Part shown: positions 1 to 59,525 of the stretch, in pieces
Layout of the letters: the number at the start of each line of letters is the position of its first letter
Numbering within the stretch: position 1 is the first letter of the stretch
DNA from: Methanococcus vannielii SB
GTDB lineage: Archaea; AGJL01; Methanococci; Methanococcales; Methanococcaceae
Length of the DNA stretch: 64,000 nucleotides
Assembly: GCF_000017165.1 (NCBI RefSeq)
Contig: NC_009634.1
Location: 1,068,249-1,132,248 of the forward strand
Reading direction: 5' to 3'
Program-made: the position numbers and the translations under genes
The notes under the pieces: model-generated
Database searches by the model: none
Told to the model about the DNA's origin: nothing
What the model saw: the letters and a program-made list of their open reading frames with translations, nothing else

Positions 1-1633
1 CTGGGTTTTCTTGATACTGTTTAATTACATCCCCTACCTTTTTAATTCCGTTAATATTGTTATTTACCATATACTTTAATACTTTTTTTCTATTTATTCG
101 ATCATCCATTAATTCATCCCTTGTAATTCCTGCAATTGCACAGACTTCTTCTTCCCACATACAAATTCCCGTTTTTACAACACTGTCACTTACACCGTCG
201 TACTTAAATAACTCGGTTTTGGTAATATTTTCACCACTTCCGCCAATTTCAACAACCCCTAAAATTCTTCTTATGGTTTTCTTATTTCTCTTAATTCGTT
301 GCTGGTTTATAATAAAATCAACTGAAGAAAGCATAACCTTTGGAACACTCATCGGGTGGTTAATAAGTCTTATTATTGCTTCATCTGCACTGTTTGCGTG
401 TAAAGTCCCTGAACAACCATCATGTCCAGTATTCATTGCAACCAACAGAGAGTGGGCTTCACTACCCCTTACTTCCCCTACAAAAATCCGGTCTGGCCTC
501 ATTCTAAGTGAGTTTTTAATTAAATCATCCATTGTAATTTCATAACCTTGAATTCCAGGTCTTCCGGGCCTTGTAATCATTTTTATAACGTGATTTAACG
601 GTACTTGCAACTCTGGCGTATCTTCAACAGTGATAATTCTATCGTTATACATTGAAAACATTGAAACAACGTTTAATGTTGTAGTCTTACCTGAACCTGT
701 ACCACCAACAATTAAGGTATTTGCTGGTTTTGAACCAAAATATCCTTCAACAGCCTGCCAAAGGAAAGATGCAAGTTCTAAATCAAAAGTTCCATATCTT
801 ATTAAATCAACAATTGTTAAGGGGTCTGCACTAAATTTACGAATTGTAATTGTACTCCCCCTAAGAGTTACATCTTGCATTGTTGCATTTACTCTACTTC
901 CATCAGGTAAAAAAGCGTCAAGTAATGGCGTTCTAGAATCAATAGTTCTTCCTGCAAGGTATGCAATACTTTCAACAACTCTTGTTGCTTCGTGGCGATC
1001 TGAACGTATGTTTGTTTCACACATTTGGTATTTTCTATGGAATACATATGCTGGAGAATCAATTCCATTTACCATTAATTCTTCTAGACTATCATCATTT
1101 AGTGGAATTTCTAAAAGTCCAAGTTTTCCAATAATTAAGTAAAAATAGTGCGATAAATGAAGTATTTCAATATCCCTTAAATGTAAGTTATTTTTTTCTG
1201 AAAAACTTTTTAAATATCCTTGAATTTGCCCTAATTTCTGTAGTGATGATTCTGATAATTCTGCTTTAATAGTCTTTATATCCAGTTCAGAGAATTTTGA
1301 AAGGGCGGTGTTCATTAATGTAATTTCGGGTATTTTATACTTTGTAACTCCTTCTTCTTTTTCGATAATAATATCAAAATCGATTTCATCAACTCTTACA
1401 AAATACTTATCTAAAATAGTGGACCTTGAATCACTAGTAAAATTTTCTATTTCTTGTTTTTTTATATCGCGGGATATCGAAAAACCAACTTTTTTGGGAG
1501 GTTCCTGTTTTGTGTCTTCTAAACTATTTTCTTTATTTTCGTAAATATTTGGGGTGTTTATATTACTTTCAGCTAAATCTTTTTTAGCAATAGCTGGTTT
1601 ATCGGATTTTTGAATCCTATCAAACAGTCCCAT
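1..1633 (-). CDS. Type IV pilus-like assembly ATPase, copy A (3' end outside window)
   Basis: This is the copy A version of the gene at 5377-7038 and is identical wherever visible. About the last nine codons and the stop fall left of base 1. It encodes a secretion ATPase of the GspE/TadA/FlaI superfamily with Walker A GGTGSGKT at residues 310-317, a Walker B region near 377-390 (RMRPDRIFVGEVRG) and a His box near 403-415. The ATG at 1633 is preceded by a GGGTGA ribosome binding site, and TFB lies 16 bases upstream. It probably powers pilus assembly with the two platform proteins encoded next to it. Whether this copy is intact depends on sequence outside the window. Confidence 0.9.
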   Translation of the reverse strand, partial: MGLFDRIQKSDKPAIAKKDLAESNINTPNIYENKENSLEDTKQEPPKKVGFSISRDIKKQEIENFTSDSRSTILDKYFVRVDEIDFDIIIEKEEGVTKYKIPEITLMNTALSKFSELDIKTIKAELSESSLQKLGQIQGYLKSFSEKNNLHLRDIEILHLSHYFYLIIGKLGLLEIPLNDDSLEELMVNGIDSPAYVFHRKYQMCETNIRSDRHEATRVVESIAYLAGRTIDSRTPLLDAFLPDGSRVNATMQDVTLRGSTITIRKFSADPLTIVDLIRYGTFDLELASFLWQAVEGYFGSKPANTLIVGGTGSGKTTTLNVVSMFSMYNDRIITVEDTPELQVPLNHVIKMITRPGRPGIQGYEITMDDLIKNSLRMRPDRIFVGEVRGSEAHSLLVAMNTGHDGCSGTLHANSADEAIIRLINHPMSVPKVMLSSVDFIINQQRIKRNKKTIRRILGVVEIGGSGENITKTELFKYDGVSDSVVKTGICMWEEEVCAIAGITRDELMDDRINRKKVLKYMVNNNINGIKKVGDVIKQYQENP

Positions 1634-1649
1634 AACAGTTCACCCTTTT

Positions 1650-2669
1650 TTAAAGTGTAACGTCGATATCTAAGTGTTCAGTAAGTTCCTTGTATCTATT
1701 TCTAATTGTAACTTCAGTAACTCCTGCAACATCTGCAACTTCTCTTTGTGTACGCCTAGTTCCTTGTAAAACGCTTGCAATATATATTGCAGCTGCGGCA
1801 ACACCTGTTGGACCCCGTCCACTAGTTAATCCTCGTTCCCCTGCTTTCTGAAGAATTGAAATTGCTTTTGATTCAACCTCTCCAGGTAATTTTAATTCGG
1901 ATGCAAACCTTGGAACATAATCTATAGGATTTGTCGGGGCGAGTCTTATGTTTAATTCTCTTGAAATAAACCTATATGTTCTCCCAATTTCTTTTCTATC
2001 GACTCTTGAAACTTCCGCAATTTCATCAAGAGTTCTTGGAACTTTACATCTTCTACATGCCGCATAAAGTGCAGCTGCGGCAACACCTTCAATACTCCTT
2101 CCACGAATTAATCCCTTTTCTACAGCACCCCTATAAAGAACTGCAGCATTTTCCCTAACGTTTCTTGGAAGCCCTAATTTTGATGCGATTCTATCGAGTT
2201 CTGAAAGTGCAAACGCCAAGTTCCTTTCTGATGCATCAGAAACCCTAATTCTCCTTTGCCACTTTCTTAAACGGTATAACTGGGCCCTTTTATCCGCAGA
2301 AATGTCTTTACCGTAACTATCTTTATTTCTCCAATCAATAACTGTTGAAAGGCCTTTATCATGAATAGTATATGTCATTGGAGCTCCAACCCTACTTCTT
2401 TTGACACGTTGCTCATGGTCGAATGCTCTCCATTCTGGGCCGACATCGAATAAATTCTGCTGTAAAACGCACCCGCACATTTCACAAACGATTTCAGCCC
2501 TTTCATAATCCTTAATTATATTTTTACTTCCGCAAACAGGACAGATTAGTTCTTCCTCTTTTTCAAGAATTACGTTTTTATTAGAATAGTCCTCAGGCTT
2601 TGCTACAGCTAGCTTTATTTTTCTTTCGGACTTTTTTGTATCTTCTTTTGTAATGGGTTCAACTTTCAT
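1650..2669 (-). CDS. tfb: Transcription initiation factor B (TFB), copy A
   Basis: This 339-residue general transcription factor bridges TBP-TATA-BRE DNA and RNA polymerase. The N-terminal zinc ribbon has C43-x2-C46 and C62-x2-C65. A B-finger/reader segment follows near 77-97 ([11 protein letters not shown]), then two cyclin-fold repeats at roughly 150-235 and 245-330. The ATG sits behind GCGGTG. It lies between Gar1 (18 bases upstream) and the pilus ATPase (16 bases downstream) in one apparent operon. It is identical to the copy at 7055-8074, so the strain would carry two copies of a gene that is usually dosage-sensitive. Confidence 0.95.
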
Positions 2670-2687
2670 GATAACACCGCGTTAAAG

Positions 2688-2957
2688 TTATTTCCTTCCT
2701 TTTTTACGGGTCTTCTGCTGCTCTTCTAAAACGAAAACGTGACTGACTTTAACTGATTCCATAGCGTCTTCTTCATTAAATGGGATTATTTTTACATAAG
2801 GTTCATCAACAGGCCCAAATATATCATATATCTTTCCAATTTTCTTAATTTTATCTTTAATTTTTAAACCGACAGATGCATTTAACCGCAACTGTTTTTT
2901 AGTACGCCCAATTAATTTTCCTTTCGGAGTTTTGTGTAATATTTGTATTTTTTCCAA
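2688..2957 (-). CDS. gar1: H/ACA RNP protein Gar1, copy A
   Basis: This 89-residue Gar1-family protein is a core component of archaeal H/ACA guide RNPs, where it binds the Cbf5 catalytic subunit and aids rRNA pseudouridylation and product turnover. The N-terminal part forms the expected small beta-barrel (KTPKGKLIGRT, then KIYDIFGPVDEPYVKI, the Gar1 signature), and the tail is basic (KTRKKGRK). The start is TTG at 2957 behind a GGGGG run; no in-frame ATG lies nearby. It is first in the minus-strand Gar1-TFB-ATPase series, transcribed from a promoter near 3041-3055. The identical second copy is at 8093-8362. Confidence 0.9.
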   Translation of the reverse strand: MEKIQILHKTPKGKLIGRTKKQLRLNASVGLKIKDKIKKIGKIYDIFGPVDEPYVKIIPFNEEDAMESVKVSHVFVLEEQQKTRKKGRK

Positions 2958-3040
2958 AGGATTTCCCCCGACAGATTACTCTATTTAAAATTATAAATAT
3001 AAACAATGATATCGATTCATATATACTCTCCACACGATTA

Positions 3041-3071
3041 TATATATAAGTTTCGAAAAGTATATATATAA
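3041..3071. promoter_or_regulatory. Back-to-back BRE/TATA elements between gar1 and idi (copy A)
   Basis: The minus strand reads CGAAACTTATATATA at 3055-3041, a good methanococcal BRE/TATA about 85-100 bases upstream of the gar1 start. The plus strand reads CGAAAAGTATATATATAA at 3054-3071. The two share a central TTCGAA and form a nearly perfect dyad centred at 3053/3054. The leftward element fits the gar1-tfb-ATPase operon. The rightward one would give idi a leader of about 350 bases or make a separate RNA. The same block occurs in copy B at 8446-8476. Confidence 0.6.
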
Positions 3072-3138
3072 TTTAATAAAATTTATTTTGGTTTAAAGCT
3101 TCTTTTAAAGAGTAACTCGACGTATTTTGGAATAATGA

Positions 3139-3163
3139 AACTAGTTTTTAATAAAAACTAGTT
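3139..3163. repeat. Perfect palindrome in the gar1-idi spacer (copy A)
   Basis: Two 12-base arms, AACTAGTTTTTA and TAAAAACTAGTT, flank a single A. Outside the arms GAATAA (3130-3135) and TTATTC (3162-3167) can also pair in a shifted register. It lies between the divergent promoters and idi, so it could be an operator or a hairpin in a leader RNA. The second copy is at 8544-8568. Confidence 0.8.
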
Positions 3164-3443
3164 ATTCATGTATAAATTAAGAATAAAACTAAAAATAGCT
3201 TTAAAATATTAATTATCAAATAATACATTAGTTAAAAACAATTTTTTTATGCTGTTTTTTATTGAAAATAGCTTTAAAATATACTAATGGTATATTTTCA
3301 TATATATCTTAATTTTTATTTTTAAATCTTTTTATTATTATTTTTTACCGTGGAAACCTTTTTATTATTTCCTGTCTATGGTTTTATATCGTGAATTTTC
3401 GGAACTTTGAGATTTTTAGATAATAATATATAGGTGGTTATTC

Positions 3444-3833
3444 GTGAATAATAATAGCATTGAATATAGAAAGTTGGAACACTTAATTGTATGTGATCAC
3501 TGTGATGTGGAGTACAAGAAAGGAACCCTTCTTGAGGACGTTGAATTGATTCACAGCGGTGTATCAAACTGCGATTTGAACAATATTGATACATCAATTG
3601 AAATATTTGGAAAAAAGTTAGATGCTCCAATAATTATTGCTGCAATAACGGGTGGACACCCTAAGGCAAAAGATGTTAATAAAAATATTGCAGTAGCTAT
3701 TGAAGAACTTAATTTAGGTATGGGAGTAGGTTCTCAAAGGGCAGGAATTTTAAAACCTGACCTAATCGATACATATTTAACGTATTTGCAAGTTCTCCGC
3801 CGTATTTTCTATTTTCAATTATCAACCTGCTAA
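3444..3833 (+). pseudogene. idi: Truncated idi (copy A), fused to antisense platform-gene DNA
   Basis: Codons 1-111, from the GTG start behind AGGTGG, are identical to the intact type 2 isopentenyl-diphosphate isomerase gene at 8849. After KPDLIDTY the duplication junction replaces the rest with 18 residues (LTYLQVLRRIFYFQLSTC) read antisense through the truncated platform gene, followed by a stop. The FMN and catalytic regions beyond residue 111 are missing, so an active enzyme is not expected. The promoter region is intact, so it may still be transcribed and would run antisense into the truncated platform gene. Confidence 0.92.
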
Positions 3834-4305
3834 TTTGTCTAAAAAGTTTTGAATCAAGTGAATTTGATACAAGCATCATCGAATCTTCAAAACTAAGCTT
3901 TTTTTCAGTCATTAACAGCACTATTTTTGAAAATACAGAATCTACTTCAGGAATTCCACTTCGTATAACTTCATTAATTGCTTCAACAATTGACCTACCT
4001 GAATCCAATGATAGAACCATTACATAAAGTGCTTTTGGAAGGTTGCTATCAAACTTTTCCATTTTTGACTCATACATTATACTTGGAATTGCAAGTACAC
4101 TCCCTAAATAAACAAGAGTTAATATGATGGTAGTTTGTAGTGTAAAACCAATTATTATCCTAAGTAATATTGGTAAAACCAGTACTACAAAAATTAATCC
4201 AATAAATATTCTTTCATCTACATTTTTACCGGTTTTTTTAAGTATCCGTAGGTTTCTTTTAATTAAATAATTATAAATTCTGGATATTGATGCAGACATA
4301 TCCAT
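3709..4305 (-). pseudogene. Truncated pilus platform protein (TadC/T2SF-like), copy B
   Basis: The first 176 codons encode a type II secretion F-domain platform protein: a hydrophobic pair at about residues 30-75 and then a cytosolic T2SF helical domain (YVMVLSLDSGRSIVEAINEVI). At 3778/3777 the frame passes through the duplication junction and reads about 22 residues antisense to idi before stopping. The C-terminal membrane part is lost. The ATG at 4305 sits just past the TGA of the upstream platform gene, with GAGTGA as ribosome binding site, so the two were translationally coupled. The complete version is predicted left of the window in copy A. Confidence 0.85.
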
Positions 4306-4309
4306 TTTT

Positions 4310-5365
4310 TCACTCTATTTTCATTTTAATAAATATTGTAAAAATTATGGTAGATAAAAGCCCTATTTTAGTCATTACTAAGTCAATAGCATTAATAATT
4401 CCATCAAAACCCTGCTGAGCCCCTAATGCAGACTGTATCATACCTGAAAATGGTATAATAAGGCCTATACCAAATATTAAATTACCTAAATTTGAAATTT
4501 GAAACTTTGAAGAATCAATTTTGGATAGTGATTCCCTTACTATTTCATTATACAGGTTTTCAAGTAATAACTGGGTTCCACCTTTATTTGCAGCAAGAAT
4601 TAATTGATCATAAAGTTTTTTTAGAAGAGGTATTTTTGACCTTACTTTTGCCCGTTCTAGTGCTTCTACAAAGTTATATCCTCCTTGATTAATATCTTTT
4701 ATAATGCTCCTAAATTCGTAAGAGGTTAAACCGTATTCTGGATTATTTGCAATATTTTTAATAGCTTCTTGGACTGACGCTCCGGAATTCAGCATTGATA
4801 TAAGGTGTAATATACTCATTAACACTTGAATCTTTATTTCTCCCCTAAATAGTGTAAGTTTTAATTTTGGATAAAATATTCCTCCAAATAGGATAATTAA
4901 TGCAAAAATAATTCCATTAGTAATTCCAGATATGGGATCAGAAGTAATTACTCCATATAAAAAAAGTAAAATAACCGCAAATATTGAAAAAACAATTATT
5001 TTTAAAAAATAAACACGTTCATCAATAATTCCAGCATACTGGTAATCTCTTTTTGATGGCAAAAATGATGTATTTGTAACCCAATACGAAAAAGAATCCG
5101 AATAACCTTGTAATGCGCCAAAACGCTTTTCAAATAAAATATCGTCTATATCAATAGTTACTTCTGGAGTTTCATTAATGTATGGTTCATAAAATTCTAA
5201 AATTTCGTCTTCCGTAAATGTTTCTTTTTTTCTATCAAATATTTTTTTTAAGTATTCTGACCTTCCAACCCTTGAAACATTTTTCCGTTTCGTAATTTTA
5301 GTACTTTTTAATAAATTCGACAGTTTATCTAAAAAACTCGGTTCTTTTTTACGTCTTACATTCAT
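4310..5365 (-). CDS. Type IV pilus-like platform membrane protein (TadB/TadC family)
   Basis: About 351 residues. A charged N-terminal region of about 100 residues is followed by two membrane segments (near 115-165), a T2SF cytosolic domain (LHLISMLNSGASVQEAIKNI) and a C-terminal membrane pair. Platform proteins of this family sit in the cytoplasmic membrane and couple the assembly ATPase to the growing filament. ATG at 5365 is preferred, although an in-frame GTG three codons upstream is possible. The ATPase stop lies 11 bases upstream and a second platform gene starts 4 bases downstream. Two platform genes beside one ATPase match the separate pilus-assembly locus known in M. maripaludis (from memory). 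Confidence 0.85.
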   Translation of the reverse strand: MNVRRKKEPSFLDKLSNLLKSTKITKRKNVSRVGRSEYLKKIFDRKKETFTEDEILEFYEPYINETPEVTIDIDDILFEKRFGALQGYSDSFSYWVTNTSFLPSKRDYQYAGIIDERVYFLKIIVFSIFAVILLFLYGVITSDPISGITNGIIFALIILFGGIFYPKLKLTLFRGEIKIQVLMSILHLISMLNSGASVQEAIKNIANNPEYGLTSYEFRSIIKDINQGGYNFVEALERAKVRSKIPLLKKLYDQLILAANKGGTQLLLENLYNEIVRESLSKIDSSKFQISNLGNLIFGIGLIIPFSGMIQSALGAQQGFDGIINAIDLVMTKIGLLSTIIFTIFIKMKIE

Positions 5366-5376
5366 TAAAATCACAA

Positions 5377-7038
5377 CTACTCCAGTATATGCTTTAAAAC
5401 ATTTTCTGGGTTTTCTTGATACTGTTTAATTACATCCCCTACCTTTTTAATTCCGTTAATATTGTTATTTACCATATACTTTAATACTTTTTTTCTATTT
5501 ATTCGATCATCCATTAATTCATCCCTTGTAATTCCTGCAATTGCACAGACTTCTTCTTCCCACATACAAATTCCCGTTTTTACAACACTGTCACTTACAC
5601 CGTCGTACTTAAATAACTCGGTTTTGGTAATATTTTCACCACTTCCGCCAATTTCAACAACCCCTAAAATTCTTCTTATGGTTTTCTTATTTCTCTTAAT
5701 TCGTTGCTGGTTTATAATAAAATCAACTGAAGAAAGCATAACCTTTGGAACACTCATCGGGTGGTTAATAAGTCTTATTATTGCTTCATCTGCACTGTTT
5801 GCGTGTAAAGTCCCTGAACAACCATCATGTCCAGTATTCATTGCAACCAACAGAGAGTGGGCTTCACTACCCCTTACTTCCCCTACAAAAATCCGGTCTG
5901 GCCTCATTCTAAGTGAGTTTTTAATTAAATCATCCATTGTAATTTCATAACCTTGAATTCCAGGTCTTCCGGGCCTTGTAATCATTTTTATAACGTGATT
6001 TAACGGTACTTGCAACTCTGGCGTATCTTCAACAGTGATAATTCTATCGTTATACATTGAAAACATTGAAACAACGTTTAATGTTGTAGTCTTACCTGAA
6101 CCTGTACCACCAACAATTAAGGTATTTGCTGGTTTTGAACCAAAATATCCTTCAACAGCCTGCCAAAGGAAAGATGCAAGTTCTAAATCAAAAGTTCCAT
6201 ATCTTATTAAATCAACAATTGTTAAGGGGTCTGCACTAAATTTACGAATTGTAATTGTACTCCCCCTAAGAGTTACATCTTGCATTGTTGCATTTACTCT
6301 ACTTCCATCAGGTAAAAAAGCGTCAAGTAATGGCGTTCTAGAATCAATAGTTCTTCCTGCAAGGTATGCAATACTTTCAACAACTCTTGTTGCTTCGTGG
6401 CGATCTGAACGTATGTTTGTTTCACACATTTGGTATTTTCTATGGAATACATATGCTGGAGAATCAATTCCATTTACCATTAATTCTTCTAGACTATCAT
6501 CATTTAGTGGAATTTCTAAAAGTCCAAGTTTTCCAATAATTAAGTAAAAATAGTGCGATAAATGAAGTATTTCAATATCCCTTAAATGTAAGTTATTTTT
6601 TTCTGAAAAACTTTTTAAATATCCTTGAATTTGCCCTAATTTCTGTAGTGATGATTCTGATAATTCTGCTTTAATAGTCTTTATATCCAGTTCAGAGAAT
6701 TTTGAAAGGGCGGTGTTCATTAATGTAATTTCGGGTATTTTATACTTTGTAACTCCTTCTTCTTTTTCGATAATAATATCAAAATCGATTTCATCAACTC
6801 TTACAAAATACTTATCTAAAATAGTGGACCTTGAATCACTAGTAAAATTTTCTATTTCTTGTTTTTTTATATCGCGGGATATCGAAAAACCAACTTTTTT
6901 GGGAGGTTCCTGTTTTGTGTCTTCTAAACTATTTTCTTTATTTTCGTAAATATTTGGGGTGTTTATATTACTTTCAGCTAAATCTTTTTTAGCAATAGCT
7001 GGTTTATCGGATTTTTGAATCCTATCAAACAGTCCCAT
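5377..7038 (-). CDS. Type IV pilus-like assembly ATPase, copy B (complete)
   Basis: 553 residues, GspE/TadA/FlaI-type hexameric ATPase for filament assembly at the cytoplasmic membrane. The first 70 residues are polar and low in complexity. A conserved N-terminal domain spans about 150-300. The RecA-like core has Walker A at 310-317, an acidic box (ITVEDTPE) near 334-341, Walker B near 377-390 and a His box (GHDGCSGTLHANS) at 403-415. The ATG follows GGGTGAACTGTT. It lies between TFB and the two platform genes, so the pilus motor is co-directional with gar1 and tfb. I infer pilus rather than archaellum because no fla genes are present. Confidence 0.92.
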   Translation of the reverse strand: MGLFDRIQKSDKPAIAKKDLAESNINTPNIYENKENSLEDTKQEPPKKVGFSISRDIKKQEIENFTSDSRSTILDKYFVRVDEIDFDIIIEKEEGVTKYKIPEITLMNTALSKFSELDIKTIKAELSESSLQKLGQIQGYLKSFSEKNNLHLRDIEILHLSHYFYLIIGKLGLLEIPLNDDSLEELMVNGIDSPAYVFHRKYQMCETNIRSDRHEATRVVESIAYLAGRTIDSRTPLLDAFLPDGSRVNATMQDVTLRGSTITIRKFSADPLTIVDLIRYGTFDLELASFLWQAVEGYFGSKPANTLIVGGTGSGKTTTLNVVSMFSMYNDRIITVEDTPELQVPLNHVIKMITRPGRPGIQGYEITMDDLIKNSLRMRPDRIFVGEVRGSEAHSLLVAMNTGHDGCSGTLHANSADEAIIRLINHPMSVPKVMLSSVDFIINQQRIKRNKKTIRRILGVVEIGGSGENITKTELFKYDGVSDSVVKTGICMWEEEVCAIAGITRDELMDDRINRKKVLKYMVNNNINGIKKVGDVIKQYQENPENVLKHILE

Positions 7039-7054
7039 AACAGTTCACCCTTTT

Positions 7055-8074
7055 TTAAAGTGTAACGTCGATATCTAAGTGTTCAGTAAGTTCCTTGTAT
7101 CTATTTCTAATTGTAACTTCAGTAACTCCTGCAACATCTGCAACTTCTCTTTGTGTACGCCTAGTTCCTTGTAAAACGCTTGCAATATATATTGCAGCTG
7201 CGGCAACACCTGTTGGACCCCGTCCACTAGTTAATCCTCGTTCCCCTGCTTTCTGAAGAATTGAAATTGCTTTTGATTCAACCTCTCCAGGTAATTTTAA
7301 TTCGGATGCAAACCTTGGAACATAATCTATAGGATTTGTCGGGGCGAGTCTTATGTTTAATTCTCTTGAAATAAACCTATATGTTCTCCCAATTTCTTTT
7401 CTATCGACTCTTGAAACTTCCGCAATTTCATCAAGAGTTCTTGGAACTTTACATCTTCTACATGCCGCATAAAGTGCAGCTGCGGCAACACCTTCAATAC
7501 TCCTTCCACGAATTAATCCCTTTTCTACAGCACCCCTATAAAGAACTGCAGCATTTTCCCTAACGTTTCTTGGAAGCCCTAATTTTGATGCGATTCTATC
7601 GAGTTCTGAAAGTGCAAACGCCAAGTTCCTTTCTGATGCATCAGAAACCCTAATTCTCCTTTGCCACTTTCTTAAACGGTATAACTGGGCCCTTTTATCC
7701 GCAGAAATGTCTTTACCGTAACTATCTTTATTTCTCCAATCAATAACTGTTGAAAGGCCTTTATCATGAATAGTATATGTCATTGGAGCTCCAACCCTAC
7801 TTCTTTTGACACGTTGCTCATGGTCGAATGCTCTCCATTCTGGGCCGACATCGAATAAATTCTGCTGTAAAACGCACCCGCACATTTCACAAACGATTTC
7901 AGCCCTTTCATAATCCTTAATTATATTTTTACTTCCGCAAACAGGACAGATTAGTTCTTCCTCTTTTTCAAGAATTACGTTTTTATTAGAATAGTCCTCA
8001 GGCTTTGCTACAGCTAGCTTTATTTTTCTTTCGGACTTTTTTGTATCTTCTTTTGTAATGGGTTCAACTTTCAT
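7055..8074 (-). CDS. tfb: Transcription initiation factor B (TFB), copy B
   Basis: This is an exact duplicate of the TFB at 1650-2669: 339 residues, zinc ribbon cysteines 43/46/62/65, B-reader segment and two cyclin repeats. Its context (gar1 upstream, pilus ATPase downstream) and upstream promoter are also duplicated, so both copies should be expressed alike. Archaea with several TFBs usually carry diverged paralogues; here the identity points to recent duplication and not to specialised factors. Confidence 0.95.
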
Positions 8075-8092
8075 GATAACACCGCGTTAAAG

Positions 8093-8362
8093 TTATTTCC
8101 TTCCTTTTTTACGGGTCTTCTGCTGCTCTTCTAAAACGAAAACGTGACTGACTTTAACTGATTCCATAGCGTCTTCTTCATTAAATGGGATTATTTTTAC
8201 ATAAGGTTCATCAACAGGCCCAAATATATCATATATCTTTCCAATTTTCTTAATTTTATCTTTAATTTTTAAACCGACAGATGCATTTAACCGCAACTGT
8301 TTTTTAGTACGCCCAATTAATTTTCCTTTCGGAGTTTTGTGTAATATTTGTATTTTTTCCAA
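8093..8362 (-). CDS. gar1: H/ACA RNP protein Gar1, copy B
   Basis: Exact duplicate of the 89-residue Gar1 at 2688-2957, with the same TTG start behind a G-run. The predicted role is the Cbf5-binding subunit of H/ACA pseudouridylation RNPs. Other H/ACA components (Cbf5, Nop10, L7Ae) are not in the window, so the duplication raises only the Gar1 gene dose. Confidence 0.9.
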   Translation of the reverse strand: MEKIQILHKTPKGKLIGRTKKQLRLNASVGLKIKDKIKKIGKIYDIFGPVDEPYVKIIPFNEEDAMESVKVSHVFVLEEQQKTRKKGRK

Positions 8363-8848
8363 AGGATTTCCCCCGACAGATTACTCTATTTAAAATTATA
8401 AATATAAACAATGATATCGATTCATATATACTCTCCACACGATTATATATATAAGTTTCGAAAAGTATATATATAATTTAATAAAATTTATTTTGGTTTA
8501 AAGCTTCTTTTAAAGAGTAACTCGACGTATTTTGGAATAATGAAACTAGTTTTTAATAAAAACTAGTTATTCATGTATAAATTAAGAATAAAACTAAAAA
8601 TAGCTTTAAAATATTAATTATCAAATAATACATTAGTTAAAAACAATTTTTTTATGCTGTTTTTTATTGAAAATAGCTTTAAAATATACTAATGGTATAT
8701 TTTCATATATATCTTAATTTTTATTTTTAAATCTTTTTATTATTATTTTTTACCGTGGAAACCTTTTTATTATTTCCTGTCTATGGTTTTATATCGTGAA
8801 TTTTCGGAACTTTGAGATTTTTAGATAATAATATATAGGTGGTTATTC
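8363..8848. other. AT-rich 486-bp intergenic region, gar1 to idi (copy B)
   Basis: Exact repeat of 2958-3443. It carries the back-to-back promoters (8446-8476), the 25-base palindrome (8544-8568) and the 18-bp direct repeats (8597-8614 and 8670-8687). This copy stands in front of the intact idi gene. Confidence 0.7.
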
Positions 8849-9919
8849 GTGAATAATAATAGCATTGAATATAGAAAGTTGGAACACTTAATTGTATGTG
8901 ATCACTGTGATGTGGAGTACAAGAAAGGAACCCTTCTTGAGGACGTTGAATTGATTCACAGCGGTGTATCAAACTGCGATTTGAACAATATTGATACATC
9001 AATTGAAATATTTGGAAAAAAGTTAGATGCTCCAATAATTATTGCTGCAATAACGGGTGGACACCCTAAGGCAAAAGATGTTAATAAAAATATTGCAGTA
9101 GCTATTGAAGAACTTAATTTAGGTATGGGAGTAGGTTCTCAAAGGGCAGGAATTTTAAAACCTGACCTAATCGATACATATTCTATTGTCAGGGATTATA
9201 CTTCTTCACTGGTTATTGGAAATCTTGGAGCAGTTAATTTTATAGAGGATGGTTGGAACGAAGAAATTATTTCAAAGTCTGTAGAAATGATAGATGCAAA
9301 TGCAATTGCAATTCATTTTAATCCTTTACAAGAAGCTATCCAACCTGAAGGGGATGTAAATTTCAAAGGACTTGGTTTATTAAAAGAAATAATTTCAAAA
9401 TATAAAAATATCTATAAAAATATTCCATTTGTTGCAAAACAGGTTGGTGAAGGATTTTCTAAAAAAGATGCCATTTTTCTAAAAAAAATGGGTTTTGACG
9501 CAATAGACGTTGGTGGAAGCGGAGGGACCTCTTGGGCCGCTGTTGAACTTTACCGGATAAAGGATGAAAAGCAAAGGGAATTTTTAAATCAGTACTATAA
9601 TTTTGGAATTCCAACTGCTGCATCCATTTTTGAAGTAAAATCGGGATTTTCAAACCCCATAATTGCAACAGGGGGAATAAGGACTGGAATTGATATCGCA
9701 AAATCAATTGCAATTGGTGCAGACTGCTGTGGAACTGCTTTACCCATTTTAAAGGCGGCTTTAAAGTCCTCAGACGAAGTTATAAATGTTCTTGAACGAA
9801 TGATTAAAGAGTTAAAGACTACAATGTTTTTAACAGGCTGTGGCAGTATTACCGATTTAAAATCTGCTAGGTATATTCTAAAAGGAGATTTAAAAAATTG
9901 GAAGGAACAAATTCGTTAA
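8849..9919 (+). CDS. idi: Isopentenyl-diphosphate delta-isomerase, type 2 (FMN)
   Basis: 356 residues. It interconverts isopentenyl and dimethylallyl diphosphate, the branch point that supplies ether-lipid isoprenoids. The family is an FMN- and NADPH-dependent TIM barrel. Visible motifs include ITGGHPKAKDVN, GVGSQRAGI, the flavin-phosphate loop GGSGGTSW, IATGGIRTG and a C-terminal GCGS. The start is GTG behind AGGTGG. RNase J and IdsA follow on the same strand, a common archaeal arrangement that links isoprenoid genes. Base 9182 marks the end of the duplicated segment, inside codon 112, so only this copy has the complete enzyme. Confidence 0.95.
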   Translation: MNNNSIEYRKLEHLIVCDHCDVEYKKGTLLEDVELIHSGVSNCDLNNIDTSIEIFGKKLDAPIIIAAITGGHPKAKDVNKNIAVAIEELNLGMGVGSQRAGILKPDLIDTYSIVRDYTSSLVIGNLGAVNFIEDGWNEEIISKSVEMIDANAIAIHFNPLQEAIQPEGDVNFKGLGLLKEIISKYKNIYKNIPFVAKQVGEGFSKKDAIFLKKMGFDAIDVGGSGGTSWAAVELYRIKDEKQREFLNQYYNFGIPTAASIFEVKSGFSNPIIATGGIRTGIDIAKSIAIGADCCGTALPILKAALKSSDEVINVLERMIKELKTTMFLTGCGSITDLKSARYILKGDLKNWKEQIR

Positions 9920-18732: not shown

Positions 18733-18767
18733 ATTAATTAATTAATTAATTAATTAATTAATTAATT
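18733..18767. repeat. ATTA tetranucleotide microsatellite
   Basis: About 8.75 uninterrupted copies of ATTA. It covers the last codons and stop of the cofH gene that ends at 18754. Every reading frame of the repeat contains TAA, so a slip would change only the last few residues. Confidence 0.9.
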
Positions 18768-19833
18768 CATAAAGTGTATTTCTCTTTTTTGGGATTTTAT
18801 TTACGTTTAAAATCATATTTTTCAATTTTTCTTCACTCATACACGTTCCAAAGCTCCCTCCGGCAGCCTTTGAAATACTTTCTTCCATTAGTGTCCCACC
18901 AACATCATTAGCACCGCAATTTAGTGAAATTTGGCTTAATTTAATTCCCAATTTTACCCATGATGTCTGTATGTTTTTTAAGTAATTTTTAAAAAATATT
19001 CTAGAAATCGCATAAACTTTTAAATCCAAAATTCCAGAAGCCCCGCTTTTAACCTTTCCAATATGGTGAAGAGGCGCATTTTCATGCAAAAATGTTAAAG
19101 GAACGAATTCTGTAAATCCAGAAGTTTCTTTTTGAATTTCCTTTAAAATTGATAAATGTTCTACTAAATGCACGTTTTCTTCAATATGGCCATACATCAT
19201 TGTACAAGTTGTTTTAATGCCGTTTTTATGGGCCGTCTTTACAACATCTATCCATTCTGATGTGGTTAGTTTTGTAGGGCATATTTCGTTTCTTATTTCA
19301 TCATTTAATATTTCTGCAGCGGTTCCAGGCATTGTTTTAAGCCCGCTATCTTTTAAAATTTTTAAAGCTTCTTTTACATTTAATCCACAATTTTCAGCAG
19401 CTGATTTAACTTCCATTGGTGAAAAGGCATGTATATCAATTCCGCCATATTTTTCAGTAATTTTTTTAACTTTTTGTAAAATTTCCGCCTGAAAATATGT
19501 GTCAATTTCTGGTAAGAGCCCACCTTGAATACATACTTCAGTAGCCCCCGTTTTTCTTGCTAAAAGTGCTTTTTCTGCAACCTTATCAGGATTTAAAAAA
19601 AATGAGTTAGGGTCTTCTTTTTCAGTTTTAAATGCACAAAATTTACACGTTCCACTGCAAACGTTTGTAAAGTTTATATTTGCATTTAAGACGTAAGTAA
19701 CCGTATCCCCAACAGATTCCTTTCTAATATCATCTGCAACTTTTAAAATATCAAAAAAGTTTTCAGTATCTAAAAATAATTCTAGGCACTCTTTTTTTGA
19801 AATATCCTTTTCTTTAAAGGAAATTAAGTCCAT
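18754..19833 (-). CDS. cofH: CofH paralogue 1 (F420 deazaflavin synthase, subunit 2)
   Basis: 359 residues, radical SAM enzyme. CofH joins tyrosine-derived 4-hydroxybenzyl to ribitylaminouracil; CofG then forms the deazaflavin F0 of coenzyme F420. The cluster motif is C59-x3-C63-x2-C66 (CSGTCKFCAF). Other conserved parts are EVCIQGGLLPEID, IHAFSPMEV, MPGTAAEIL and MYGHIEE. It lies 101 bases downstream of the second paralogue on the same strand. Its first 48 residues are identical to that paralogue while the rest is clearly diverged. The 3' end lies in an ATTA microsatellite. Confidence 0.9.
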   Translation of the reverse strand: MDLISFKEKDISKKECLELFLDTENFFDILKVADDIRKESVGDTVTYVLNANINFTNVCSGTCKFCAFKTEKEDPNSFFLNPDKVAEKALLARKTGATEVCIQGGLLPEIDTYFQAEILQKVKKITEKYGGIDIHAFSPMEVKSAAENCGLNVKEALKILKDSGLKTMPGTAAEILNDEIRNEICPTKLTTSEWIDVVKTAHKNGIKTTCTMMYGHIEENVHLVEHLSILKEIQKETSGFTEFVPLTFLHENAPLHHIGKVKSGASGILDLKVYAISRIFFKNYLKNIQTSWVKLGIKLSQISLNCGANDVGGTLMEESISKAAGGSFGTCMSEEKLKNMILNVNKIPKKRNTLYELIN

Positions 19834-19836
19834 TAG
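19694..19836 (-). repeat. 143-bp identical 5' block, cofH copy 1
   Basis: Base-for-base identical to 20875-21017. It covers the first 48 codons plus three bases before the ATG. The genes differ widely beyond it, including at synonymous sites, so the identity is not explained by protein constraint. Confidence 0.95.
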
Positions 19837-19937
19837 CTCACCTGCCGAGTGTTAGGATTTAAAAAAAATATTTATTTTAATTATTATTCTATTAGTTATT
19901 ATATCATTATATAATTATTATATTAATAATAATACCA

Positions 19938-21014
19938 TTATTTAATTATTTCATAAAGTGTAGTTCTTTTTTTCGGAATTCTGCCTATATTCTTAATTGC
20001 ATTTTCCATTAATTCAGTACTTGCATCTTCATAGGTACTTCCGGCAGCTTTTGAAACTTTATCTTCCATCAATGTTCCACCAAGGTCGTTTGCACCACAT
20101 TTTAGAATAATTTGGCTTAATTTGGTTCCAAGTTTTACTCTTGGAACTTGAATGTTTTTAATCGTATCTTTAAAAAATATTCTAGAAATTGCATAAAGTT
20201 TTAATTCGTAAAGCCCGTTTGCACCGTCTTTAACCCTGCCCAAATTATAAAGTGGCGTATTTTCATATAAGTATGAAAGCGGAATAAATTCTGTAAATAC
20301 AGAAGTTTCTTTTTGAATTTCCTTTAAAATGGAAAAATGCTCAACAACGTGACTGTATTGTTCAATATGCCCGTACATTATAGTTGATGTCGTTTTAAAT
20401 CCTATTTTATGGGCTTCCTTAATTATTTCAATCCATTTATTTACGGGCATTTTTAAAGGACATATCTCATTTCTAACGCTGTCATTAAGAATTTCAGCAG
20501 CGGTTCCAGGAATGGTTCTTAAACCTGCGTCATAAAGCATTTCTAACGCTTCTTTTACATTTAATCCAGCAACTTCGGCACCATTTAATATTTCCTGTGG
20601 TGAATATGCATGGACGTAAATTCCACCAAACGGGTTCGTTACTTCATTTACTTTTTTTAGTGTTTCAACTTGAAAATGAGTATCTACATCAGGATGAATT
20701 CCGCCATGAATTGTAACTTCCGTAAATCCTGCTTTTTTTGCTAAAAGGGCTTTTTTTGCAATTTCTTCTGAATTTAATTTAAATGCTTCCAAGCTATTTT
20801 TTGATTTTCCAAAAGCACAGAATTTACAACCCATTATACAGACATTTGTAGTCTCTATATTTGTATTAACCACATAAGTAACCGTATCCCCAACAGATTC
20901 CTTTCTAATATCATCTGCAACTTTTAAAATATCAAAAAAGTTTTCAGTATCTAAAAATAATTCTAGGCACTCTTTTTTTGAAATATCCTTTTCTTTAAAG
21001 GAAATTAAGTCCAT
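19938..21014 (-). CDS. cofH: CofH paralogue 2 (F420 deazaflavin synthase, subunit 2)
   Basis: 358 residues, radical SAM, C59-x3-C63-x2-C66 in CIMGCKFCAF, with EVTIHGGIHPDVD, VHAYSPQEI, IPGTAAEIL and MYGHIEQ as in CofH. IHGGIHP is closer to the CofH sequences I remember than the matching segment of paralogue 1, so this may be the ancestral copy. It is upstream of paralogue 1 and diverges from mer, an F420-dependent enzyme. Which copy does the main CofH reaction cannot be told from sequence. Confidence 0.9.
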   Translation of the reverse strand: MDLISFKEKDISKKECLELFLDTENFFDILKVADDIRKESVGDTVTYVVNTNIETTNVCIMGCKFCAFGKSKNSLEAFKLNSEEIAKKALLAKKAGFTEVTIHGGIHPDVDTHFQVETLKKVNEVTNPFGGIYVHAYSPQEILNGAEVAGLNVKEALEMLYDAGLRTIPGTAAEILNDSVRNEICPLKMPVNKWIEIIKEAHKIGFKTTSTIMYGHIEQYSHVVEHFSILKEIQKETSVFTEFIPLSYLYENTPLYNLGRVKDGANGLYELKLYAISRIFFKDTIKNIQVPRVKLGTKLSQIILKCGANDLGGTLMEDKVSKAAGSTYEDASTELMENAIKNIGRIPKKRTTLYEIIK

Positions 21015-21017
21015 TAG
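20875..21017 (-). repeat. 143-bp identical 5' block, cofH copy 2
   Basis: Partner of 19694-19836. The identity stops three bases upstream of the ATG and just after codon 48, at a sharp boundary on each side. Confidence 0.95.
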
Positions 21018-21236: not shown

Positions 21237-22211
<975 letters not shown>

Positions 22212-58703: not shown

Positions 58704-58777
58704 GCCTCGGTGGCTCAGCCTGGTAGAGCGCCTGACTTGTAATCAGGTGGTCGGGGGTTCGAATCCCCCCCGAGGCT
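58704..58777 (+). tRNA. tRNA-Thr (TGT)
   Basis: Acceptor GCCTCGG/CCGAGGC, D-arm GCTCAGCCTGGTAGAGC, anticodon stem CTGAC/GTCAG-like around TTGTAAT (TGT), T-arm GGGGG/CCCCC, discriminator T. First gene of the RNA operon. The paralogue at 28801 (GGT) is similar in its D-arm. Confidence 0.95.
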
Positions 58778-58813
58778 TGAGTTACCTTTAAAAGAGGAAA
58801 AACTCGTTAAAAA

Positions 58814-58891
58814 GGGCCTGTGGGGTAGCCTGGTCCATCCTTTGGGATTTGGGATCCTGAGACCCCAGTTCAAATCTGGGCAGGCCCACCA
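58814..58891 (+). tRNA. tRNA-Pro (TGG), CCA encoded
   Basis: Acceptor GGGCCTG/CAGGCCC, anticodon stem TGGGA/TCCTG around TTTGGGA (anticodon TGG), T-arm CCCAG/CTGGG, discriminator A. The genome encodes the CCA tail here (58889-58891), unlike the other tRNAs of the cluster. Confidence 0.92.
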
Positions 58892-58898
58892 TTATTTC

Positions 58899-58972
58899 CC
58901 CGCGATAGTTCAGATTGGTAGAACGGCGGACTGTAGATCCGCATGTCGCTGGTTCAAATCCGGCTCGCGGGA
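58899..58972 (+). tRNA. tRNA-Tyr (GTA)
   Basis: Acceptor CCCGCGA/TCGCGGG, D-arm GTTCAGATTGGTAGAAC, anticodon loop CTGTAGA giving GTA, T-arm GCTGG/CCGGC around TTCAAAT, discriminator A. It lies 7 bases after the CCA of tRNA-Pro. Confidence 0.94.
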
Positions 58973-58989
58973 TTTAAATATCCCCTCAT

Positions 58990-59063
58990 GGGCCCGTAGC
59001 TTAGTCTGGTAGAGCGCCTGACTTTTAATCAGGCGGTCGAGGGTTCGAATCCCTTCGGGCCCG
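58990..59063 (+). tRNA. tRNA-Lys (TTT), copy 1
   Basis: Acceptor GGGCCCG/CGGGCCC, anticodon loop CTTTTAA (TTT), T-arm GAGGG/CCCTT, discriminator G. Identical to 59355-59428. It precedes the 5S rRNA. Confidence 0.95.
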
Positions 59064-59095
59064 TTCAAAACATTAAATACGTTTAGGTATTGTTT

Positions 59096-59214
59096 TGATA
59101 CGGCGGTCATAGCGGGGGTGTAACATCCGATCCCATCCCGATCTCGGAAATTAAGCCCTCCAGCGATTCCTTAAGTACTGCTATCTAGTGGGAACAAGGT
59201 GACGCTGCCGATCA
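59096..59214 (+). rRNA. rrf: 5S ribosomal RNA
   Basis: About 119 nt. Terminal helix TGAT..CGGC/GCCG..ATCA, the conserved loop CGATCCCATCCCGAT, and GAAATTAAGCCCTCC. It is isolated from 16S/23S and lies within a tRNA cluster, as described earlier for Methanococcus vannielii. A T-run follows it at 59216-59220. Ends are approximate. Confidence 0.94.
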
Positions 59215-59229
59215 CTTTTTATTCCAAAT

Positions 59230-59304
59230 GCCCTGGTGGTGTAGCTCGGCCTATCATACAGGACTGTCACTCCTGTGACTCGGGTTCAAATCCCGGCCAG
59301 GGCG
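59230..59304 (+). tRNA. tRNA-Asp (GTC), copy 1
   Basis: Acceptor GCCCTGG/CCAGGGC, anticodon loop CTGTCAC giving GTC, T-arm CGGG/CCCGG, discriminator G. Identical to 59451-59525. It follows the 5S rRNA by 15 bases. Confidence 0.94.
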
Positions 59305-59354
59305 CTTTGCGTCTTTTAAATAATAAATAATCAGTATTTTGAAAAAGCCGTTAT

Positions 59355-59428
59355 GGGCCCGTAGCTTAGTCTGGTAGAGCGCCTGACTTTTAATCAGGCG
59401 GTCGAGGGTTCGAATCCCTTCGGGCCCG
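59355..59428 (+). tRNA. tRNA-Lys (TTT), copy 2
   Basis: Identical to the tRNA-Lys at 58990-59063. Together with the tRNA-Asp at 59451 it repeats the Lys-Asp order, here without a 5S gene between them. Confidence 0.95.
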
Positions 59429-59450
59429 CTAATTTTCGTATATTAAAAAT

Positions 59451-59525
59451 GCCCTGGTGGTGTAGCTCGGCCTATCATACAGGACTGTCACTCCTGTGAC
59501 TCGGGTTCAAATCCCGGCCAGGGCG
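59451..59525 (+). tRNA. tRNA-Asp (GTC), copy 2
   Basis: Identical to 59230-59304. Last gene of the operon, 22 bases after tRNA-Lys copy 2. Confidence 0.94.

Follow-up and report, generated by a model that had tools for sequence, protein, structure and literature searches.

Recurrent gene conversion very probably accounts for the shared 5' ends of tandem cofH paralogues in Methanococcus

In this study, we conclude that the two tandem cofH genes of Methanococcus vannielii SB very probably derive from an old tandem duplication whose cores have diverged, and that the first ~140 coding bases were gene-converted repeatedly in separate lineages, with the latest event in this species. The identity of the 5' ends, the borders of the identical block, the discordant trees for the two parts of the gene and the different ages of the events across species carry this conclusion. 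The window, that is, the whole stretch of 64,000 nucleotides that was analysed, lies on a complete archaeal chromosome 1,720,048 bp long, and the features concerned are as follows.

18754..19833, minus strand: cofH paralogue 2 (canonical-like copy), ORF of 359 aa
19938..21014, minus strand: cofH paralogue 1 (mer-proximal, derived copy), ORF of 358 aa with CxxxCxxC at residues 59-66
21249..22211, plus strand: presumably mer (F420-dependent methylene-H4MPT reductase), an ORF; divergently transcribed neighbour outside the conversion event
20875..21017, minus strand: very probably converted block of paralogue 1, reaching from 3 bp ahead of the ATG to the second base of codon 47
19694..19836, minus strand: very probably converted block of paralogue 2, identical to 20875-21017

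Both twins scored above the equivalog cut-off of 374 bits for TIGR03551 (F420_cofH), with 482 bits for paralogue 1 and 526 bits for paralogue 2, and both contained the Radical_SAM and CofH_C domains (Pfam) together with the radical-SAM CxxxCxxC motif (C59-C63-C66), which was invariant in 37 of 37 homologues. By family score and motif, both are predicted to be CofH (FO synthase subunit 2), their activity as a 5-amino-6-ribitylaminouracil: tyrosine hydroxyphenyl transferase being a prediction, above all for paralogue 1. The neighbouring gene, which we take from its sequence to be mer, lay next to the cofH locus in all seven Methanococcus genomes searched (7/7). The tandem pair was present in four of these seven, namely that of the window, G001, G002 and G003, always flanked by mer on one side and by the same downstream gene on the other, and the other three (G004, G005 and G006) carried a single cofH at the mer locus. 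Each of the other gene-bearing genomes of the order had one cofH, with weaker matches belonging to other radical-SAM enzymes, and the incomplete genome G015 gave only a weak match, of that other radical-SAM type. In G033, a 466-aa ORF resembling a GHKL-type ATPase (L058:865-2265) lay on the cofH strand and separated cofH from the following gene, which is conserved there in the other genomes.

The block is an exact identity over 143 bp at an offset of 1181, made up of the 3 bases that precede the ATG and of 140 coding bases, which take in 46 complete codons and the first two positions of codon 47, so the sharply bordered identity named in the original prediction, with divergence elsewhere that includes synonymous positions, was confirmed to the base. 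The twin proteins are identical from M1 to V48, as had also been noted. On the 3' side, the coding sequences shared 68% identity, their codons differing synonymously in 69 cases and by replacement in 124, and pS outside the block was 0.54; on the upstream side, only the ribosome-binding site (GGTGA) still matched and the promoter regions beyond it differed. The longest other identical run between the twins was 31 nt. When polymorphic sites were shuffled 20,000 times, the 44 matching sites observed in a row exceeded the maximum of 21 in any shuffle, giving p=0.00005, the floor of the test. There was no third or mobile copy of the block elsewhere in the genome. A search of Rfam returned no match at the block, and a candidate RNA element within it was rejected, with a weak consensus fold of -9.5 kcal/mol over 171 nt and a covariation term of -0.95.

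Trees were built separately for nt 1-141 and nt 145-1077 of a DNA alignment of 13 genes, and the comparison covered the four pair-bearing species of the genus, with one genome per species. In the tree of nt 1-141, the twins of the window grouped together (98/96), as did those of G002 (100/99), and the twins of G003 and of G001 lay close to each other among the maripaludis-type rows, unresolved as clades; with 141 columns only, twin clades were rejected for neither G001 nor G003 (p 0.45 and 0.28). Forcing a paralogue-1 or a paralogue-2 clade on the block cost delta lnL 93 and 96, with AU p values of 2e-42 and 1e-33. The tree of nt 145-1077 united the four paralogue-1 genes (100/99) and the four paralogue-2 genes (100/98), and here every twin clade was rejected (delta lnL 160-446, AU p<=5e-4). 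The alignment columns followed the same division: nt 1-141 held 23 columns in which the twins agreed in every species and none of paralogue type, and nt 142-300 held 3 of the former vs 36 of the latter. The original prediction expected 5' blocks to group within strain and 3' parts by paralogue after conversion, and named grouping of the 5' blocks by paralogue across species as a sign of strong selection. Paralogue clades of the block were rejected at AU p<=1e-33, and the block pairs of the window and of G002 stand beside a remainder sorted by paralogue; therefore, the expectation from conversion holds at the level of species.

The twins of the four species differ in the apparent age of their last exchange. 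Values of pS between twins in the block and in the rest of the gene were 0.036 and 0.54 in the window, 0.036 and 0.59 in G002, 0.18 and 0.55 in G003, and 0.41 and 0.52 in G001, corresponding to 1, 1, 5 and 11 silent differences in nt 1-141 (about 27-28 silent sites); the single difference in the window falls outside the 140 identical nucleotides. In G002, the twins matched over nt 12-139 apart from a later difference at 130 and another at 28, and the latest tract in G003 covered about nt 85-142. Only an older tract was visible in G001, where the best run spanned nt 27-64 (p 0.001; p 0.06 on third positions alone). The twins of both G001 and G003 also departed from shuffles (p=0.001). Since silent divergence between twins ranges from 1 to 11 differences, at least three conversion events of different age are needed, one in the lineage of the window, one in that of G002 and one more among the maripaludis-type species, and the number was probably four. 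The original prediction of a recent conversion of the 5' ends thus stands as to conversion, which is most recent in the species of the window, but the process recurred in the genus and was not a single event. All events keep the same borders, at the ribosome-binding site upstream and at nt 139-142 downstream. The downstream end of a tract is visible only where paralogue-specific differences begin (nt ~145), and the shared border therefore means that no event extending into the core has survived since before the species split.

The border of the block lies just ahead of the catalytic part of the protein, with the start of the Pfam core at residue 53 and the first cysteine of the cluster at residue 59. 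Among 53 residues fixed differently between the paralogues, none fell in residues 1-47 and the first was residue 51. The outgroup residue was kept by paralogue 2 alone at 24 of these 53 sites and by paralogue 1 alone at 6, which marks paralogue 2 as the conservative CofH of the two and paralogue 1 as derived. An AlphaFold2 model was computed from three sequences and used only for the N-terminal helices, as its mean pLDDT was 62.7 and it was poor elsewhere; it predicted helices at residues 3-7, 13-21 and 26-39 within residues 1-47, with pLDDT of 75-89 over residues 1-40. Among the single-copy CofH proteins of the order, mean identity was 0.65 in residues 1-47 vs 0.75 in the core. The suggestion that the twins swap or share an N-terminal function was not borne out by this lower conservation, and the simplest reading is therefore that the segment is an interchangeable helical one. 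The M. voltae-like genomes (L055, L056 and L057) have a single fast-evolving CofH, which the protein tree placed on a long branch together with paralogue 1 (97/95); alternative placements were rejected only marginally or not at all (AU p 0.048 and 0.12). If this grouping is right, the canonical copy was lost there and F420 synthesis must rely on paralogue 1.

It is conceivable, though rather unlikely in our view, that conversion was actively favoured because both N-termini have to fit one shared partner, e.g. CofG or a mixed CofH dimer, which would refine the conversion explanation and not replace it. One defined segment was converted recurrently, a case for such matching has been made for Mtr and similar complexes (PMC4632066), and of 26 long-lasting prokaryotic cases, 22 encode members of complexes (PMC6053082). 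However, the partner is putative, neutral conversion limited by homology gives the same pattern, and the block of G001 was left to diverge. A still more elaborate version, which we hold to be slightly less probable again, would make the 5' segment a selected exchangeable module, with the N-terminal helices of two CofH-type enzymes of different function kept matched by conversion to one partner per species, specialised active-site cores and a new substrate or role for paralogue 1.

Strong selection on the N-terminal protein, its codons or its RNA could in principle have kept the 5' ends alike with no exchange at all, as the segment is common to both proteins and the region from the ribosome-binding site to codon 47 could hold an RNA signal. 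Against the genes of the window, however, orthologues had pS of 0.33-0.54 in the block vs 0.54-0.59 outside and pN of 0.12-0.14 vs 0.10-0.14, and among the other three species pS was 0.35-0.43 in the block vs 0.30-0.44 outside. The block of orthologues is no more conserved than the rest, and therefore neither selection nor silent-site constraint can explain a likeness found only within species. The low conservation of residues 1-47 in single-copy CofH, the weak RNA fold, the lack of an Rfam match at the block and the grouping of block trees by species also speak against selection, which we regard as highly improbable. An equally poor account is given by an independent recent tandem duplication in each species followed by fast 3' divergence: the tandem arrangement and the single copy of related genera would fit, but in the four species orthology follows the paralogue for the 3' parts, the upstream regions and the neighbours, and twin clades were rejected for the rest of the gene. 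An assembly fault is unlikely to have produced the identical block because the relatives show the same pattern.

Considering all the above results, we propose a plausible model of how conversion recurred between the cofH twins. The duplication very probably predates the separation of the window's species and the M. maripaludis-like species, and the radical-SAM cores of the twins diverged after it. Conversion may then have arisen through RadA-dependent homologous repair off the neighbouring paralogue, with misaligned tandem copies 1,181 bp apart, probably in a polyploid cell; for M. maripaludis, each cell has been described as containing 30-55 copies of the genome (PMC9430280). Two causes might fix the borders. 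Outside the patch there may be too little uninterrupted identity for recombination, and conversions into the core or the promoter may be selected against because the copies and their controls have become different. Each conversion would restore the identity that permits the next one. As for direction, paralogue 1 of G003 has Tyr47, which is Phe in paralogue 1 of G001 and G002, and paralogue 1 of the window has Val49, each matching paralogue 2 and the single-copy genes; these border residues hint, weakly and with uncertainty, at transfer from paralogue 2 to paralogue 1.

A second stretch of likeness between the same twins was found farther downstream in the genes.

20301..20328, minus strand: possible short conversion patch of paralogue 1 at CDS columns 687-714 (..LKEIQKETS)
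19120..19147, minus strand: partner of the possible patch in paralogue 2 (31-nt identical run)

Here, 14 matching polymorphic sites occurred in a row (p=0.003; p=0.05 on third positions alone), which is suggestive only of a second, very short conversion in the species of the window at columns 687-714.

Other repeated sequence was observed in the same window. Positions 1-9182 cover the right-hand portion of a tandem array with 4.00 perfect copies (G000:C1:1055809-1077430; L064, L065), with a 5,405-bp unit, a total of 21,622 bp and no mismatch between copies. Each unit stretches from within a TadC/FlaJ-like gene into a type-2 isopentenyl-diphosphate isomerase gene and holds a TadA/FlaI-like ATPase gene (5377-7038), a transcription factor B gene (1650-2669 and 7055-8074) and pilus-type genes, so that transcription factor B occurs in four identical copies here vs once in four related genomes. 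At the internal junction (3444-3833, 3709-4305), a truncated isomerase gene runs into an opposite-strand truncated TadC-like gene, only 2-3 bp of sequence being shared at the array junction, and an intact isomerase gene (8849-9919) stands at the right edge. Amplification may have taken place recently, in the strain that was sequenced. Farther along, positions 58704-59525 carry seven tRNA genes and a 5S rRNA, with no 16S/23S matches, and include two near-identical tRNA pairs.

The cofH twins offer a compact natural record in which one patch was overwritten repeatedly within the same borders while the catalytic core diverged. The N-terminal sequence of CofH twins should accordingly be left out of paralogue trees. 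The pair also raises the question of what makes the M. maripaludis group retain two CofH genes, one of them diverged, whereas a single gene is found in most of the order, and its interest would rise if the N-terminal segment were matched to a shared partner or if paralogue 1 had a new role. No report of gene conversion in cofH was found in the open-licence literature, and likewise none on MMP0057. The cofH case is a well-supported instance of a kind of event that is already known.

A genome-wide survey has listed 26 long-lasting concertedly evolving prokaryotic genes, including mtrA, glnB and a histone gene of Methanococcales, in which conversion recurs over speciation events as it does in cofH, a gene that a term search of the survey's text did not find (PMC6053082). 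The bacterial release factors RF1 and RF2 are similar in that conversion is confined to a functionally common domain and the other domains must differ; there, two independent cases are known, in Bacteroidetes and Chloroflexi, whereas the cofH genes are tandem and the events were repeated within one genus (PMC4530459). The closest parallel is the pair mtrA-1/mtrA-2 of Methanococcales and Methanomicrobiales, which underwent partial, recurrent gene conversion (PMC4632066). Like cofH, these are tandem paralogues of methanogens in which one part was homogenised recurrently per species and the other was kept different; the diverged part of mtrA is the transmembrane segment, and its twins group by species, M. 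vannielii and M. maripaludis included (PMC4632066). In mtrA, however, a whole domain was homogenised, to a mean identity of 99.7% in Methanococcales, and fusion gave rise to the part that differs (PMC4632066). In cofH, only a 47-residue segment is involved, the core diverged by substitution and conversion was patchier in time, as the diverged twins of G001 illustrate. After mtrA, cofH is the second clear case in Methanococcales of partial gene conversion that happened repeatedly.
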